Origin: OCS116 cluster bacterium AG-435-F03 | Lineage (GTDB): Bacteria > Pseudomonadota > Alphaproteobacteria > MED-G09 | DNA length: 64,000 nucleotides | Direction of reading: 5' to 3' | Assembly (NCBI GenBank): GCA_003212795.1 | Contig: QCOV01000001.1 | Span: forward strand, 153,321-217,320 | Part shown: one piece after another, positions 48,604 to 63,654 of the stretch | Layout: the number at the start of each line of letters is the position of its first letter | Numbering within the stretch: position 1 is the first letter of the stretch | Translations under genes and position numbers: made by a program | The notes under the pieces: model-generated | What the model was told of the DNA's origin: nothing | What the model saw: the letters and a program-made list of their open reading frames with translations, nothing else | Database searches by the model: none

Positions 48604-51414
48604 GTGTTGGATTTTAGCAAATTAAGGTTATCAAGTTTTAAATCTTTTGTTGAACCAATAGAAATAGATATAAAAGATGGGTTGACTGGAGTAGTTGGTC
48701 CAAATGGTTGTGGTAAATCAAATTTGGTTGAAGCGATTAGGTGGGTTATGGGCGAAGCTTCCTATAAATCCATGCGAGCATCAAGTATGGAAGGCGTTAT
48801 TTTCCAAGGAACTCAAAATAGACCTTCAAGAAACTCAGCTGAAGTATCTCTAGTATTAAATAATAAAGACCGTGATGCTCCTCTTATGTGCAATGATACT
48901 GACATAATTGAAGTTACAAGGAGAATAGAAAGGGAAGCAGGCTCTGTTTATAAATTAAATGGTAATGATACAAGGGCAAGAGACATACAAATGCTTTTTG
49001 CTGATGCTTCAACTGGCGCAAGATCGCCATCTTTAGTAAGACAGGGTCAAATTCAAGAATTAATTGATCAAAAACCTAACGAAAGAAGAAGAATTCTAGA
49101 AGATGCTGCAGGTATTTCTGGTCTTCATGTTAGAAGACATGAGGCTGAGCTAAGAATTAAATCTGCTGAAACAAATATTGATAGGCTTGATGATATATTA
49201 AAAGAATTAGCATCTCAGGTAAGATCTCTTAATAAACAATCAAGGGAAGCAAGCAGATATAAAAATTTATCACAAAAAATTCGAGAAACAGAAATCCTAC
49301 TTCTTGCAAGAAAATACAAAACAATTGAACTAGAATGTAAAGAAAACGAAGATAACCTCCATTCTCTTAATGTTGAACATCAAAATATAGTTAGGAGTGT
49401 AAGTAATAAAAAAACAGAAGAATTAAATATTCAAGAATCATTACCTGAGTTAAAAAAAGGATCGAATGATTCTTCTGCAATCCTTCAAAGGTTAATTATT
49501 GAGATGGAAAGATTTGATAATGATCAAATACAGTCTGATAGAAGAAAGCAAGAATTAGATGACTTAATTTCAACTACCAATCTTCAATTAAAAAGAGAAA
49601 TTCAGATTTTAGAGGATATAAACAATAATGTTATAGGTAACGATAAAGATACAAATACTAACGAAGATGAAATAAAGCTTAAAATAAATAAAAAAGAAAC
49701 TTTAATTATAGATTTAGATAAAGAAATAAATGATCTTACAAAACTTAATGCTGAAAAAGATGCTTTAGAAGGAATAATTGGAGATAATGTTGATGCAACT
49801 AATTCTCTTATAGAGAATCTTGATGTTAAACCTGGCTTTGAAAAAGCATTAGATGCCTTACTTGGTGATGAATTATACCACTCTTTGGATACTAAAAATG
49901 ATATACATTGGAAAAAACTATCGATTAAAGAAAGATCTCAAAATCTTCCATCAGGATGTAAACCGCTTTCAGAATTTGTTCATGGTTCAGATGTTTTAAA
50001 CGAAAGACTTAACCAAACTGGTTTGGTAAATAAATCAGATGGTGAAAAGCTTTCCTCCAAACTAACATATGGACAAAGAATAGTATCAAAAGAAGGTGAC
50101 TTATGGAGATGGGACGGTTTGGTCGTAGCTGCTGGTGCACCAGGATCTGCAGCTGAAAGATTAGGGCAAAGAAATCGTTTGATTGAAATATATGAAGAAA
50201 TAAAAGAATTTGAAAATAATTCTGGAAATATCGATTCTTTAAGAAAAAAATTAAAAGATGCTCATAAAGATTTATCTGATTTGAGGTTAAATTTTGAAAA
50301 AATTCAACTTAATAAAAAAAATGTTTCTGATTTAAATAAAAGAAAAGATATAGCAGCTGAACAAATTACTATTCTAGAAAATAGAATTGAGAAGTTTGAA
50401 GAAGAAAATATAAATCTTGAACAAAAACCTGAAGATATTGATACAAAAAAAATAGACTTGAGTGAGAAAATTTTAACAGCAAGAAAAAAATCTAATGAAG
50501 ATAATGACAAATTAGCTGAATTAGAAAATAACCTAAGAGATACAGTCCTTAAAATTAGAGAATTATCTGATCAAGAGTCACATCTAAGAGAGAATAAGGG
50601 TAGAGTTGAAGTAACGCTTGAATCAAATAAAACTCGATTATCAGAAATCATTAACTTAATTGAAAAAGAACATAAAAAAGAGACTTCAAAATTTATGGAA
50701 GAAGTAGATGTTTCATTGGATAATGAAGATGAAGATGAAGATGAAATGCAAATGACTATAGATAGATTAAAAAGAGAAAGAGATGATCTTGGGGGTGTAA
50801 ATTTAAAAGCTGAGGAGGAAGCAGAGGAAATAAAAGAGAGAATTAATGAAATTAAGATCGAAAGAGATGATCTAGTTGAGGCAATTAAGAAGCTTAGAAC
50901 TGGAATTAACGACTTAAATAGAGAAGGAAGAGAAAGAATGCAACGAGCCTTCTTAGAAGTGAATGAACAATTTCAAAATGTATTTAAGAAATTTTTTGGC
51001 GGTGGAAATGCCGAATTAAAGTTTATAGATTCTGATGATCCTCTTGAGGCAGGGCTAGAAGTTTTTGCTCAATTACCAGGTAAGAAATTAATAGAAATGT
51101 CATCCTTATCAGGTGGAGAAAAAGGTTTGGTCTCATTGTCTTTAATTTTTGCTGTATTCTTAACAAATCCATCACCAATTTGTGTTCTTGATGAGGTTGA
51201 CGCAGCTCTAGATGATAGTAATGTTGAAAAATTTTGTGATTTAATTGAGGAAATTGCTTCAAATGTAAAAACAAGATTTCTTGTAATTACACATCATCCT
51301 TTAACTATGGCAAGAATGGATAGGCTTTATGGTATAACAATGCAAGAAAAGGGAGTAAGTCAATTAGTTTCAGTCGACCTTAATGTTGCTGAGAAAATCA
51401 GAAATATTGCTTAA
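48604..51414 (+). CDS. smc: Chromosome segregation protein SMC (short form, 936 aa)
   Basis: FKSFVEPIEIDIKDGLTGVVGPNGCGKSNLVEAIRWVMGE Walker A; hinge around residues 390-540; SLSGGEKGLVSLSLIFAVFL signature; CVLDEVDAALDDSNV Walker B. GTG start. Confidence 0.95.
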   Translation: MLDFSKLRLSSFKSFVEPIEIDIKDGLTGVVGPNGCGKSNLVEAIRWVMGEASYKSMRASSMEGVIFQGTQNRPSRNSAEVSLVLNNKDRDAPLMCNDTDIIEVTRRIEREAGSVYKLNGNDTRARDIQMLFADASTGARSPSLVRQGQIQELIDQKPNERRRILEDAAGISGLHVRRHEAELRIKSAETNIDRLDDILKELASQVRSLNKQSREASRYKNLSQKIRETEILLLARKYKTIELECKENEDNLHSLNVEHQNIVRSVSNKKTEELNIQESLPELKKGSNDSSAILQRLIIEMERFDNDQIQSDRRKQELDDLISTTNLQLKREIQILEDINNNVIGNDKDTNTNEDEIKLKINKKETLIIDLDKEINDLTKLNAEKDALEGIIGDNVDATNSLIENLDVKPGFEKALDALLGDELYHSLDTKNDIHWKKLSIKERSQNLPSGCKPLSEFVHGSDVLNERLNQTGLVNKSDGEKLSSKLTYGQRIVSKEGDLWRWDGLVVAAGAPGSAAERLGQRNRLIEIYEEIKEFENNSGNIDSLRKKLKDAHKDLSDLRLNFEKIQLNKKNVSDLNKRKDIAAEQITILENRIEKFEEENINLEQKPEDIDTKKIDLSEKILTARKKSNEDNDKLAELENNLRDTVLKIRELSDQESHLRENKGRVEVTLESNKTRLSEIINLIEKEHKKETSKFMEEVDVSLDNEDEDEDEMQMTIDRLKRERDDLGGVNLKAEEEAEEIKERINEIKIERDDLVEAIKKLRTGINDLNREGRERMQRAFLEVNEQFQNVFKKFFGGGNAELKFIDSDDPLEAGLEVFAQLPGKKLIEMSSLSGGEKGLVSLSLIFAVFLTNPSPICVLDEVDAALDDSNVEKFCDLIEEIASNVKTRFLVITHHPLTMARMDRLYGITMQEKGVSQLVSVDLNVAEKIRNIA

Positions 51415-59764: not shown

Positions 59765-59833
59765 TCAATGACTTTATTACTATTTTTTAAGACAGAATTA
59801 CTATAATAAAAAATATAGACATTGGAGGTGTCA

Positions 59834-61189
59834 GTGACAGCAAAAAAAATGGAAGAATTAGTCTCTCTGTGTAAAAGAAGAGGATTCATTTATCAAACTA
59901 ATGAATTATACGGCGGAATGCAGGGTGTATATGACTATGGTCCATTAGGAGTTGAATTAAAAAATAATCTAAAACAAGCTTGGTGGAGCTCTATGGTTTA
60001 TGAAAGAGATGATATAGAGGGCTTAGACTCTTCAATATTAACTCATCCAAATGTTTTGAGATACTCTGGTCACGAAGAGACTTTTACTGACCCACTTGTA
60101 GATTGTAAGGACTGCAAATCAAGGTTTAGAGCTGATCATATCGATAATAATAAATGTCCTTCATGTGGTTCAGAAAATTTAACTGACCCTAGGCCTTTTA
60201 ATCTTATGTTTAAAACAACAATTGGGCCTGTTGATGATGGAAGTAGTTTTGCATATTTAAGACCAGAAACCGCTCAACAAATTTTTACAAATTTTAAGAA
60301 TGTAGTTGATTCAACATCAAGAACATTACCTTTTGGAATTGCTCAAATTGGAAAGGCTTTCAGAAATGAAATAACTCCAAGAAATTTCATTTTTAGAGTA
60401 AGGGAATTTGAACAAATGGAATTAGAATTTTTTGTAGAGCCTGGTAGTGATGAGGAATGGCATCAAAAATGGGTTGATGAAAGAGTCAGTTGGTGGGAAC
60501 GACAAGGCGTGGATAAAAGTAAATTAGAAATTATTGATGTCGATAAAGAAGATTTATCGCATTATTCAAAAAAAACGGTTGATATAATGTACGAATTTCC
60601 TCATGGGCTTGAGGAATTAGAAGGTATCGCAAATAGAACTGATTTTGATATAGGATCACATACTAAAAATCAGAAAGATTTTGAAATAAATGCTGATGTT
60701 ATAAAAAATGATGACTCAGTAACAAAATTAGCAATTCAAGATAAGATTAACAATACATGGACTATACCTTATGTAATTGAGCCATCGGCAGGAGTTGATA
60801 GAGGATTTTTAGCTGTATTAAACGAGGCATATAAAGTTGAGAAGCTAGAAAATGGTAAAGAGAGAACTGTCTTATCTCTAAAATCTCACTTATCGCCTAT
60901 AAAGGCTGCGGTTATTCCATTAAAAAGAAATAATCAAGATTTAGTTAACAAAGCAGTAGAATTAAAAAAGCAATTGCAGTCAATCGGCTTAGGAAGAGTA
61001 GTGCTTGATAATGCAGGCAATATTGGTAAAAGCTATAGAAGACATGATGAAGTTGGAACACCAATGTGCATAACAATTGACTTTGAAACATTGGATGATA
61101 ATTCTGTTACAGTAAGAGATAGAGATTCTATGGAGCAAAAAAGAATTAAATTAGATGAAATTTCTAATTTTTTTGTAAAAAATCTCTAA
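59834..61189 (+). CDS. glyS: Glycyl-tRNA synthetase, single-chain (alpha2, eukaryotic/archaeal/Gram-positive-like) type
   Basis: [100 protein letters not shown] start at 59834 with GGAGG. Confidence 0.95.
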
Positions 61190-61198
61190 TAAATTGAA

Positions 61199-62866
61199 AT
61201 GACAAAATATATACACGCTTTTTCAGATCCTATAACTGATGAAATTGATCAATCATTGATAGGTAATAAAGGCTATAATCTGTGTTTAATGCATGGAATG
61301 GACTTACCTATTCCTGAAGGATTTATAATTAACGCAAATGCCACTAAAGAATATAAAATTCAAAATAATTTTAGTGATAAATTTTTTGATGAATTAAAAA
61401 TTAATTTAGACCTTATTCAAAATAAGACAAATCTTCAAATTGGGAATCCAGAAAAACCGCTAATCTTATCAGTGAGATCAGGCTCAATGATATCAATGCC
61501 AGGAATGCTTGATACAATTTTAAATGTAGGCCTAAATCATGAAATAGTTAAAACTTTAGCAAAAAATAACAATGGTTTTTTTGCATATGATACATGGAGA
61601 AGATTTATTCAAATGTATTCTCATGTTGTTCATAGAGTCGATACTTATGATTTTGATGAAATACTGGAAAATTATCTTCTTGGAGCAAATTTAAATGCCG
61701 TTAGTCAATTAGATGCTGAAGACTTAGAAGAAATATGTAAAATGTATTTGGATCTATTCAGGGAAAGAGTGGGTAAAGATTTTCCCGAAGATCCATATGA
61801 TCAAATAAATAAATCCATAATTGCTGTTTTAAATTCATGGGATAATGAAAGGGCGATTTCATACCGAAATATAAATGATATTCCTGATAATATTGGTCTA
61901 GCAGTAACTATACAAAGAATGGTTTTTGGAAATTTAAACGATAAAAGTGCTTCTGGTGTTATTTTTTCAAGAAATCCAGATACAGGTGAAGATAAGATTA
62001 AAGGAGAGTATTTAATTGAGTCACAAGGAGAAGATGTTGTTTCAGGGTTTGTTACACCAAAAAATATTTCGGAAAAAGCCAATGATGAAGCTTTCATAAA
62101 TATTTTTCCGGATATTTATTCTCAAATAAATATAATTTCTAAAGATTTAGAAAGGTATTTTGGGTTTGTTCAGGATATTGAATTTACAATTGAGTCAAAT
62201 ATATTATGGGTTTTGCAATCACGAGATGCAGAGTTAAACGCTCAAGCATCTTTTAAGGTTTTAAGTGATTTTGTTAATGAAAAAATAATAAATCAAACTG
62301 AAGCTTTAAAATTAATCAAAGATGCCCATATTGAAAAAGCTTTTGTTCCAATTCTTGATGATTCACAAAAGTTAAAAAGTTTAACAAAAGGATTACCAGC
62401 ATCTCCAGGAGTAGTATCGGGTTTAGTTGCTTTTGATATTGAAGGAATAAATAGAATTAAAAATAGAGATGAGAAATCTATATTAATTCTTATTGAAACA
62501 AATACTAATGATATTAAAGCCATGCATGCATCTGATGGTATATTAACTTCTAGAGGAGGGCTTACTAGCCATGCTGCAGTTGTTGCAAGAGGTTTAAATA
62601 AGCCTTGTATTACAGGCGCCATAGAAATTGAAATAAACCCCAAAGACAAAAATATTTCTATTAATGATAAAGTTATTTCTGAATTTGATACAATTACCCT
62701 TGATGGCCATTCAGGAGAAGTTTTTGAGGGTATAGCAAAAACAAAACTTCAAGAACCAACTTCAGATCTAAAAGAAATACTAGATTGGTGTAAAGAGATC
62801 GTTTCTGATGAGGAAATTATTGACCCTTTAAAGATTATTAGTAAAGCCAAATTAAAGTTAGAGTAA
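61199..62866 (+). CDS. PPDK-like protein: ATP-grasp plus phosphohistidine domains, lacking the C-terminal PEP/pyruvate barrel
   Basis: GNKGYNLCLMHGMDLPIPEGFIIN, LSVRSGSMISMPGMLDTILNVG, MVFGNLNDKSASGVIFSRNPDTGED, GGLTSHAAVVARGLNKPCITGA; stop at 62866 where full-length PPDK would enter its C-terminal domain. Confidence 0.9.
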   Translation: MTKYIHAFSDPITDEIDQSLIGNKGYNLCLMHGMDLPIPEGFIINANATKEYKIQNNFSDKFFDELKINLDLIQNKTNLQIGNPEKPLILSVRSGSMISMPGMLDTILNVGLNHEIVKTLAKNNNGFFAYDTWRRFIQMYSHVVHRVDTYDFDEILENYLLGANLNAVSQLDAEDLEEICKMYLDLFRERVGKDFPEDPYDQINKSIIAVLNSWDNERAISYRNINDIPDNIGLAVTIQRMVFGNLNDKSASGVIFSRNPDTGEDKIKGEYLIESQGEDVVSGFVTPKNISEKANDEAFINIFPDIYSQINIISKDLERYFGFVQDIEFTIESNILWVLQSRDAELNAQASFKVLSDFVNEKIINQTEALKLIKDAHIEKAFVPILDDSQKLKSLTKGLPASPGVVSGLVAFDIEGINRIKNRDEKSILILIETNTNDIKAMHASDGILTSRGGLTSHAAVVARGLNKPCITGAIEIEINPKDKNISINDKVISEFDTITLDGHSGEVFEGIAKTKLQEPTSDLKEILDWCKEIVSDEEIIDPLKIISKAKLKLE

Positions 62867-62868
62867 AT

Positions 62869-63654
62869 TTACTCTATCGGCATTTTCATTGGTCCAGTAC
62901 TAATTACTTCATCTCTTGCTTTTATAGGATCTTCAACAACTAGTTTTTCTAAATCCTCAAGGTCTTCTGGTACATACCAGTGTATTTTATCATCTTCATA
63001 TGCTCGATAAACAGTTTTAGCTATATCTTCAGCTGGAATAAGTCTCCACATTCCATTAGACGGAAGTGTAGACCTAATGTCTTGGCTAATTATGGGCGTA
63101 TCAATTACACCAGGTAATATATCAGAGACCTTTACACCAAACCTTTTAAATTCAGCTGAAAGAGATTCTGTTAATCCTTTTACCGCATGCTTAGATGCTG
63201 AGTAAACTGAAGTCATTGGTAGACCAATTATTCCAGTTGAAGATGATGTATTTAAACATAATGAATTATCAGTATTTTTTAAAAGATCTATTGCTGAATA
63301 TATACCATTTATTACTCCAAAGAGATTAATATTAACAACTCTTAGATGGTTTTCATAAGGCTGATCTTCAAAAAAGCCACCTTCAGCAATTCCAGCGTTA
63401 TTAAATAAAATATCTAATTTATTATTAGATATATTAGAAAATTCTTTCACTGCTTTTTCAAACATATCTTTATTTGAAACATCAAGTTCTCTGCAAATTA
63501 AATTTTCTGAATTTATTTCTTCTTCTAATGCATTTAGATTGTTTTTGTTGATATCATAGCAACCAACAAACCAACCTTTATCAATAAATAACTGAACAGT
63601 AGATTTTCCCATACCACTTGCACCACCAGTTATGAAAATATATTTTTTACTCAT
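62869..63654 (-). CDS. SDR family oxidoreductase
   Basis: YIFITGGASGMGKSTV, NNAGIAEGGFF, YSASKHAVKGLTESL. Confidence 0.88.
   Translation of the reverse strand: MSKKYIFITGGASGMGKSTVQLFIDKGWFVGCYDINKNNLNALEEEINSENLICRELDVSNKDMFEKAVKEFSNISNNKLDILFNNAGIAEGGFFEDQPYENHLRVVNINLFGVINGIYSAIDLLKNTDNSLCLNTSSSTGIIGLPMTSVYSASKHAVKGLTESLSAEFKRFGVKVSDILPGVIDTPIISQDIRSTLPSNGMWRLIPAEDIAKTVYRAYEDDKIHWYVPEDLEDLEKLVVEDPIKARDEVISTGPMKMPIE

Follow-up and report, generated by a model that had tools for sequence, protein, structure and literature searches.

What does a pyruvate, phosphate dikinase (PPDK) do once the half that binds pyruvate and PEP has gone? The question is posed by a 555-aa open reading frame in the 64-kb stretch of DNA analysed here (the window, 64,000 nucleotides), which an earlier note, made from the letters alone, had described as a PPDK-like protein stopping after its phosphohistidine domain. 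Here, we ask whether the barrel is truly missing, how widely and for how long it has been so, and which function the remaining protein may serve.

A PPDK that ends where the barrel would start

Profile searches bear out the description. The ORF, read from an ATG start to a TAA stop, matches positions 2-526 of the 865-position PPDK model TIGR01828 with 571 bits, under the curated cut-off of 843, and ends at the would-be start of the barrel (model position 526/865). PPDK_N and PEP-utilizers are its sole Pfam domains, with no PF02896 match; of the parts that make up a PPDK, the ATP-grasp domain and the swivel domain with the catalytic His are present and the PEP/pyruvate barrel is missing. The segments SVRSGSMISMPGMLDTILNVG, LQSRDAELN, GGLTSHAAVVARG and HSGEVFEG are each found in the translation. 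Over residues 18-532, its identity to PPDKs of solved structure is 38-40%. Features of the locus are compiled in Table 1.

Table 1. Features of the short PPDK locus (window positions) and of the encoded protein
Feature	Position	Strand	Evidence
Single-chain glycyl-tRNA synthetase (GlyRS; name from sequence), 9 bp upstream, same strand	59822..61189	+	
Barrel-less PPDK, 555 aa: ATP-grasp domain, linker, phosphohistidine swivel domain, short tail	61199..62866	+	profile + alignment
ATP-grasp nucleotide-binding part, residues 1-342	61199..62224	+	alignment
DAELN, residues 343-347, where canonical PPDK has xGKRT after the catalytic Arg	62225..62239	+	alignment
Phosphohistidine swivel domain, ~residues 393-511 (Pfam PEP-utilizers 425-506)	62375..62731	+	Pfam, structure comparison
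Thr456-Ser457-His458: regulatory Thr (C. symbiosum T453), catalytic His (H455)	62564..62572	+	alignment; PMC2817694, PMC8100219
Residues 512-555: end of ancestral linker helix and lineage-specific predicted helix 543-554	62732..62863	+	alignment, model
Short-chain dehydrogenase (SDR), convergent neighbour, conserved in family	62869..63654	-	

Alignment places K24, R93, R135, E278 and D279 at K22, R92, R135, E279 and D280 of C. symbiosum PPDK, and D326, E328, Q340 and R342 at D321, E323, Q335 and R337. In C. symbiosum numbering, K22, R92, G101, M102, R135, Q240, E279, D280, D321, E323, Q335, R337, T453 and H455 are identical in 12/12 aligned family sequences; what these residues do in the ATP/Pi half-reaction was reportedly worked out by McGuire, Ye and Dunaway-Mariano. 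The catalytic His segment is thus intact as first read, His458 (C. symbiosum H455) being invariant, and all family members carry GG[LM]TSH, in which the Thr lies two residues before the catalytic His. Where LQTRxGKRT had been seen to read LQSRDAELN, the GKRT part is indeed altered, being AExN here and AExN or ATxN in every family member, but the change stops short of the Arg, which is not lost (R342, the counterpart of R337). With AExN in place of GKRT beside this Pi-binding Arg, the half-reaction could be altered or weakened.

Structure matches include PDB entries for the K22A, R337A and T453A mutants of PPDK. An AlphaFold2 model built from an alignment with viral relatives (pLDDT 77; a five-sequence alignment gave pLDDT 32) superposes on 1kbl with a TMq of 0.82 and a short extra helix at its end, its inter-domain orientation being unreliable. 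The extra helix, predicted at residues 543-554, would occupy the site where the barrel would start.

The short form is fixed throughout a marine family

The genome measures 1.44 Mb and is 96% complete. Its GTDB order was sampled with 18 genomes of PS1/OCS116-type marine Alphaproteobacteria, constituting one family with 3 genera, and a scan of named genome contigs added five close relatives among OCS116-cluster, PS1-clade and 'Rhodobiaceae' marine records. Each family genome has one PPDK match, and in the 18-genome order every copy without contig-end cuts (13/13) encodes 555-564 aa at the same locus, with no ~880 aa form there. With 13 intact copies in independent genomes, an assembly error or frameshift was rejected. 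Outside the family, a class-level comparison of best PPDK matches covered 387 genomes; among the ~160 matches listed, nearly all lie in open frames of ~870-1,500 aa, mostly ~890-930, with one of 705 and one of 771. PPDK has been replaced family-wide and permanently by a form without the pyruvate-binding half.

Family loci are syntenic, with the GlyRS gene directly upstream (an adjacency kept in 10/10 loci examined) and the SDR gene directly downstream; apart from GlyRS, they contain no conserved operon partner hinting at a target. Elsewhere in the window, an SMC-like protein (48604-51414) of 936 aa falls below the usual bacterial SMC length, and both of its terminal domains match.

Within the genus, dN/dS of the short PPDK ranges from 0.06 to 0.23 (YN00) or from 0.17 to 0.39 (NG86), the top values stemming from the least diverged pair, whose dS is small. 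Since genera are only ~45-56% identical, this selection is long-term purifying. A set of 33 full-length PPDKs shares 214 conserved columns, of which the PS1-clade family keeps 117 invariant and has 44 replaced in all its members. A tree with 52 rows, built from the two domains that all forms share, resolves the family as one clade (100/100) on a stem of 1.88 changes per site, placed within a mostly alphaproteobacterial group of full-length PPDKs (84/94) and apart from other short forms; a rerun minus four long-branch rows again recovered one clade. The single clade, the family-wide occurrence and the purifying selection agree with the view, already put forward in the earlier note, that divergence is long-standing rather than a recent frameshift. 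Read most simply, the tree has the barrel disappear a single time, in the common ancestor of the PS1-clade family. This truncation is likely independent of that in other short PPDKs, which is unproven because AU tests allow the family to join other short forms (p 0.18 and 0.24, no rejection).

No barrel is encoded elsewhere

The 3' end of the SDR gene lies 2 bp downstream of the ORF and leaves no room for a barrel remnant, as had been noted from the coordinates. The window as a whole agrees: tblastn with three alphaproteobacterial barrel domains gave nothing above chance (best E 1.8), while in the positive control the same queries found real barrels at E<1e-120. At the genome level, PF02896 does not exceed its curated cut-off in this genome or in any g1 or g2 family genome, with the search being positive in 14/14 control genomes. 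The only match in this genome, at a sub-cut-off 21.9 bits, is a 350-aa protein that by its sequence resembles an HpcH/CitE-type aldolase and occurs in g1 and g3 only; a true PF02896 domain occurs in a single family genome, G008, inside a 591-aa enzyme I (EI). The suggestion that the protein is one half of a split PPDK fails on this absence of PF02896, which excludes a separate barrel gene for this genome.

The metabolic setting tolerates loss of PEP formation

ATP-PEPCK was found in 9/11 family genomes, the other two being 82-83% complete, and in 0/4 full-length-PPDK genomes of other families. Pyruvate kinase is present in 5/6 family genomes (the copy of this genome is incomplete at the locus edge). 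With both enzymes present, PPDK activity is dispensable for PEP and loss of the PEP-forming half is tolerable, which ties barrel loss to these two enzymes.

Two candidate roles were rejected on gene content. PrpD (PF03972) is absent from 6/6 family genomes tested, so the methylcitrate-cycle control proposed for the mycobacterial protein VadK, with PrpC/PrpD as partners, cannot apply in the PS1-clade family. HPr (PF00381) and EI are absent from the g1 and g2 genomes tested, where a PTS phosphorelay acceptor was accordingly dismissed. G008 (L037:1378-3153, L064) is the sole family member with PTS enzyme I and HPr, and it is also the one high-quality genome lacking the PPDK regulatory protein.

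The PPDK regulatory protein is retained

DUF299 proteins (PF03618), among them the PPDK regulatory protein (PDRP), phosphorylate the regulatory Thr of their client with ADP once the catalytic His is phosphorylated, and reverse this with Pi (PMC2817694, PMC8100219); PDRP acts only on a His-phosphorylated client (PMC2817694). PF03618 was detected in 13/15 family genomes tested (5/6 and 8/9), the copy of G014 being a fragment. Elsewhere in the class it occurs in 44/51 PPDK-bearing and 2/20 PPDK-lacking genomes, so that the family frequency compares with that of PPDK bearers at p=1.0 and with that of PPDK lackers at p=1.1e-5, rough values given the phylogenetic non-independence of the genomes. In this genome, PDRP comprises 269 aa and matches the whole Pfam model with GVSRTSKTP intact; its gene, on the minus strand at L070:1483-2289, adjoins maf- and aroE-like genes (names from sequence).

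The short PPDK combines the two marks of a PDRP client, a Thr two before the catalytic His and, except in G008, a regulator in the same genome; G008 keeps the short PPDK without PDRP. No other PPDK or PEPS was detected as a client (one PPDK match per genome; PF02896 absent from this genome and those of g1 and g2), leaving the short protein as the only evident one. Retention of PDRP under these circumstances implies that the short protein still passes through a phosphohistidine, which is the strongest functional inference of this analysis; PDRP could instead be retained for some unrecognised client. For the study of PDRP the family is an experiment of nature, since the regulator has been conserved alongside a client that has lost the ability to make PEP.

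A putative histidine autokinase and its alternatives

With moderate confidence, and judging from sequence evidence, we propose that the protein is an ATP-dependent histidine autokinase gated by PDRP, acting as a regulator or phosphocarrier. As the lineage's only PPDK-family protein it would keep running the ATP half of the PPDK cycle: ATP, together with Pi or water, would phosphorylate His458 on the swivel domain and AMP would be released. Rather than feeding PEP synthesis, the phosphohistidine form would constitute a regulatory state or a phosphocarrier for another protein, and PDRP would set the active fraction by ADP/Pi via Thr456. Autophosphorylation, regulation at Thr456 and signalling are what we infer for the short PPDK. 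Bolder, and put forward tentatively, is the possibility that the whole clade has converted its housekeeping PPDK, still at the native locus, and the dedicated ADP/Pi-driven PDRP into a stand-alone phosphohistidine energy-charge switch, in which the His would be charged by ATP and then locked or released by PDRP via the adjacent Thr, depending on ADP and Pi. If true, a metabolic enzyme and the protein regulating it would have given rise to a signalling pair unlike two-component systems, the PTS or VadK.

The complete half-reaction site and the conserved His would also suit a true transferase, a catalytic enzyme and no regulator, handing phosphate from His458 to an acceptor, either a protein dedicated to this task or a small molecule, by a logic likened to that of glucan water dikinase and rifampin phosphotransferase. 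In keeping with such a role, other barrel-less PPDKs adjoin catabolic genes, namely pyk in Azospirillum and pyk together with gcl/glxR in Skermanella. The PS1-clade protein, however, has no added acceptor domain but a tail of ~45 aa, its gene surroundings lack a conserved metabolic operon, and g1 and g2 have neither HPr nor EI, which would be the obvious acceptors of the phosphocarrier type; we regard a transferase as rather unlikely. The protein might alternatively do without any acceptor, converting ATP (and Pi) to AMP and PPi/Pi with slow hydrolysis of the phosphohistidine, as an adenylate/PPi adjuster or a pure conformational ATP sensor. In support of this, a C. symbiosum truncation without the C-terminal domain is said to catalyse the ATP/Pi partial reaction (McGuire et al. 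1998), but such a cycle would be wasteful in a streamlined 1.4-Mb genome unless tightly gated, making this reading improbable.

PPDK activity in trans, with a non-homologous or highly diverged PEP/pyruvate-binding protein docking on the short protein, is very doubtful. The swivel-domain His is intact and the AlphaFold model adopts a 1kbl-like arrangement, albeit one whose domain orientation is unreliable; against this, g1 and g2 genomes lack PF02896 over the curated cut-off in a test that does detect the EI barrel of G008, and for Mtb the authors of the VadK study dismissed the corresponding idea on the basis of the genome (PMC13400623). That the gene is a decaying PPDK remnant with residual or no function is highly improbable: its long stem branch (1.9 changes per site) and an evolution faster than that of several neighbours would fit decay, but selection is purifying, the active site is strictly conserved across 45-56% identity between genera, intact loci show no interrupted copies and PDRP is kept. 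Between regulator and phosphotransferase, PDRP retention and the VadK precedent (PMC13400623) favour an autophosphorylating His kinase or regulator by analogy.

Comparison with known systems

Canonical PPDK (EC 2.7.9.1; 1kbl, 1dik) shares with the short PPDK the fold over residues 18-532 and the half-reaction residues; it possesses the C-terminal barrel and GKRT, whereas the short form is without a barrel and has AExN instead. Rifampin phosphotransferase, PEP synthase and PTS enzyme I have the swivel phosphohistidine domain in common with it, but differ in domain order or in acceptor or barrel domains missing from the short PPDK, and their curated models score low. The analogy to rifampicin phosphotransferase drawn in the earlier note is therefore weak: model NF041857 yields 46.8 bits against a cut-off of 999, and no RIF-binding domain lies between the ATP and His domains.

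Phage PPDK-like 'kinases' (phrog_18609) likewise combine the ATP and His domains of PPDK and give no PF02896 match; these proteins are, however, 615-678 aa long, with an unrelated C-terminal extension and the AKRT motif kept. They were seen on four IMG/VR viral contigs (L113:3938-5785, L114:3956-5854, L115:3950-5941, L116:3884-5920). ORF98 of Vibrio phage vB_VneS_J26 is PPDK-like with 691 aa (PMC12038007), and phage PPDKs reported as AMGs may also lack a real pyruvate barrel.

Barrel-less paralogs in other Alphaproteobacteria (G021, G044, G050, G067; Skermanella and Azospirillum plasmids) have the same two-domain architecture with 527-575 aa. In the sampled genomes, however, they are second copies next to a full-length PPDK, whereas the PS1-clade copy is the only one, and their neighbours differ: a PhoU-like 665-aa partner, pyk or methylmalonyl-CoA genes. 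The PhoU-like partner was looked for in the PS1 family and is absent. In two other alphaproteobacterial families, short PPDK paralogs directly follow a 663-665 aa protein with overlapping frames (L055:5792-9386, L056:7119-10726); the two proteins share 35% identity and match PhoU/DUF47 weakly. PPDK and partner make a candidate two-gene system, and a PhoU-like partner also adjoins a longer PPDK-like gene in G059. The plasmid-borne short PPDKs of Skermanella (L104:2502-5656) and Azospirillum (L105:678-5629) lie beside or near pyruvate kinase, with gcl/glxR in Skermanella. Given to barrel-less proteins of this kind, the RefSeq-style label 'pyruvate, phosphate dikinase', as seen on these two, would lead metabolic models of abundant marine bacteria to include a conversion of pyruvate to PEP that is false.

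Closest in concept is Mtb VadK (Rv1127c), through which barrel-less PPDK regulators have been known since 2025-26: with no barrel in its genome, it uses ATP/Mg to phosphorylate itself on the equivalent His and has a regulatory role (PMC13400623). Like VadK (PMC13400623, PMC12636432), the window protein joins a PPDK ATP-grasp domain to a catalytic His domain, keeps the site residues and has no barrel in its genome. The model used here for VadK-type short PPDKs, NCBIfam NF004531/PRK05878, has a curated cut-off of 456, which the short PPDKs of L057, L058, L104 and L105 pass, whereas the window protein scores 416 and those of the other genera 394 and 414. That of L058 (L058:440-12062; G044, alphaproteobacterial) reaches 693 bits. 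Immediately upstream, a gene encodes a 717-aa protein that matches no Pfam model; other neighbours resemble a carboxylase and a subunit of methylmalonyl-CoA mutase by their sequence, which makes this another propionate context.

The PS1-clade protein differs from VadK in that it fails the VadK-type cut-off, occurs without PrpD and has kept PDRP (the VadK paper is silent on DUF299). Also unlike the VadK type, the family branches within the radiation of alphaproteobacterial PPDKs, although grouping it with other short forms is not rejected. Because of the NF004531 score and the different regulator and target, we do not class the window protein as a VadK, although by analogy it plausibly works partly like VadK, at the level of autophosphorylation. 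PPDK can shed its product-forming half yet stay under selection as an organism's only PPDK-family protein, which was first shown in actinobacteria and is met here outside them. Lasting loss of the pyruvate-binding half, with every known catalytic residue of the ATP side and, in most genomes, PDRP retained, suggests that a metabolic enzyme has turned into a switch or carrier based on phosphohistidine, for which mycobacterial VadK is the recent precedent.
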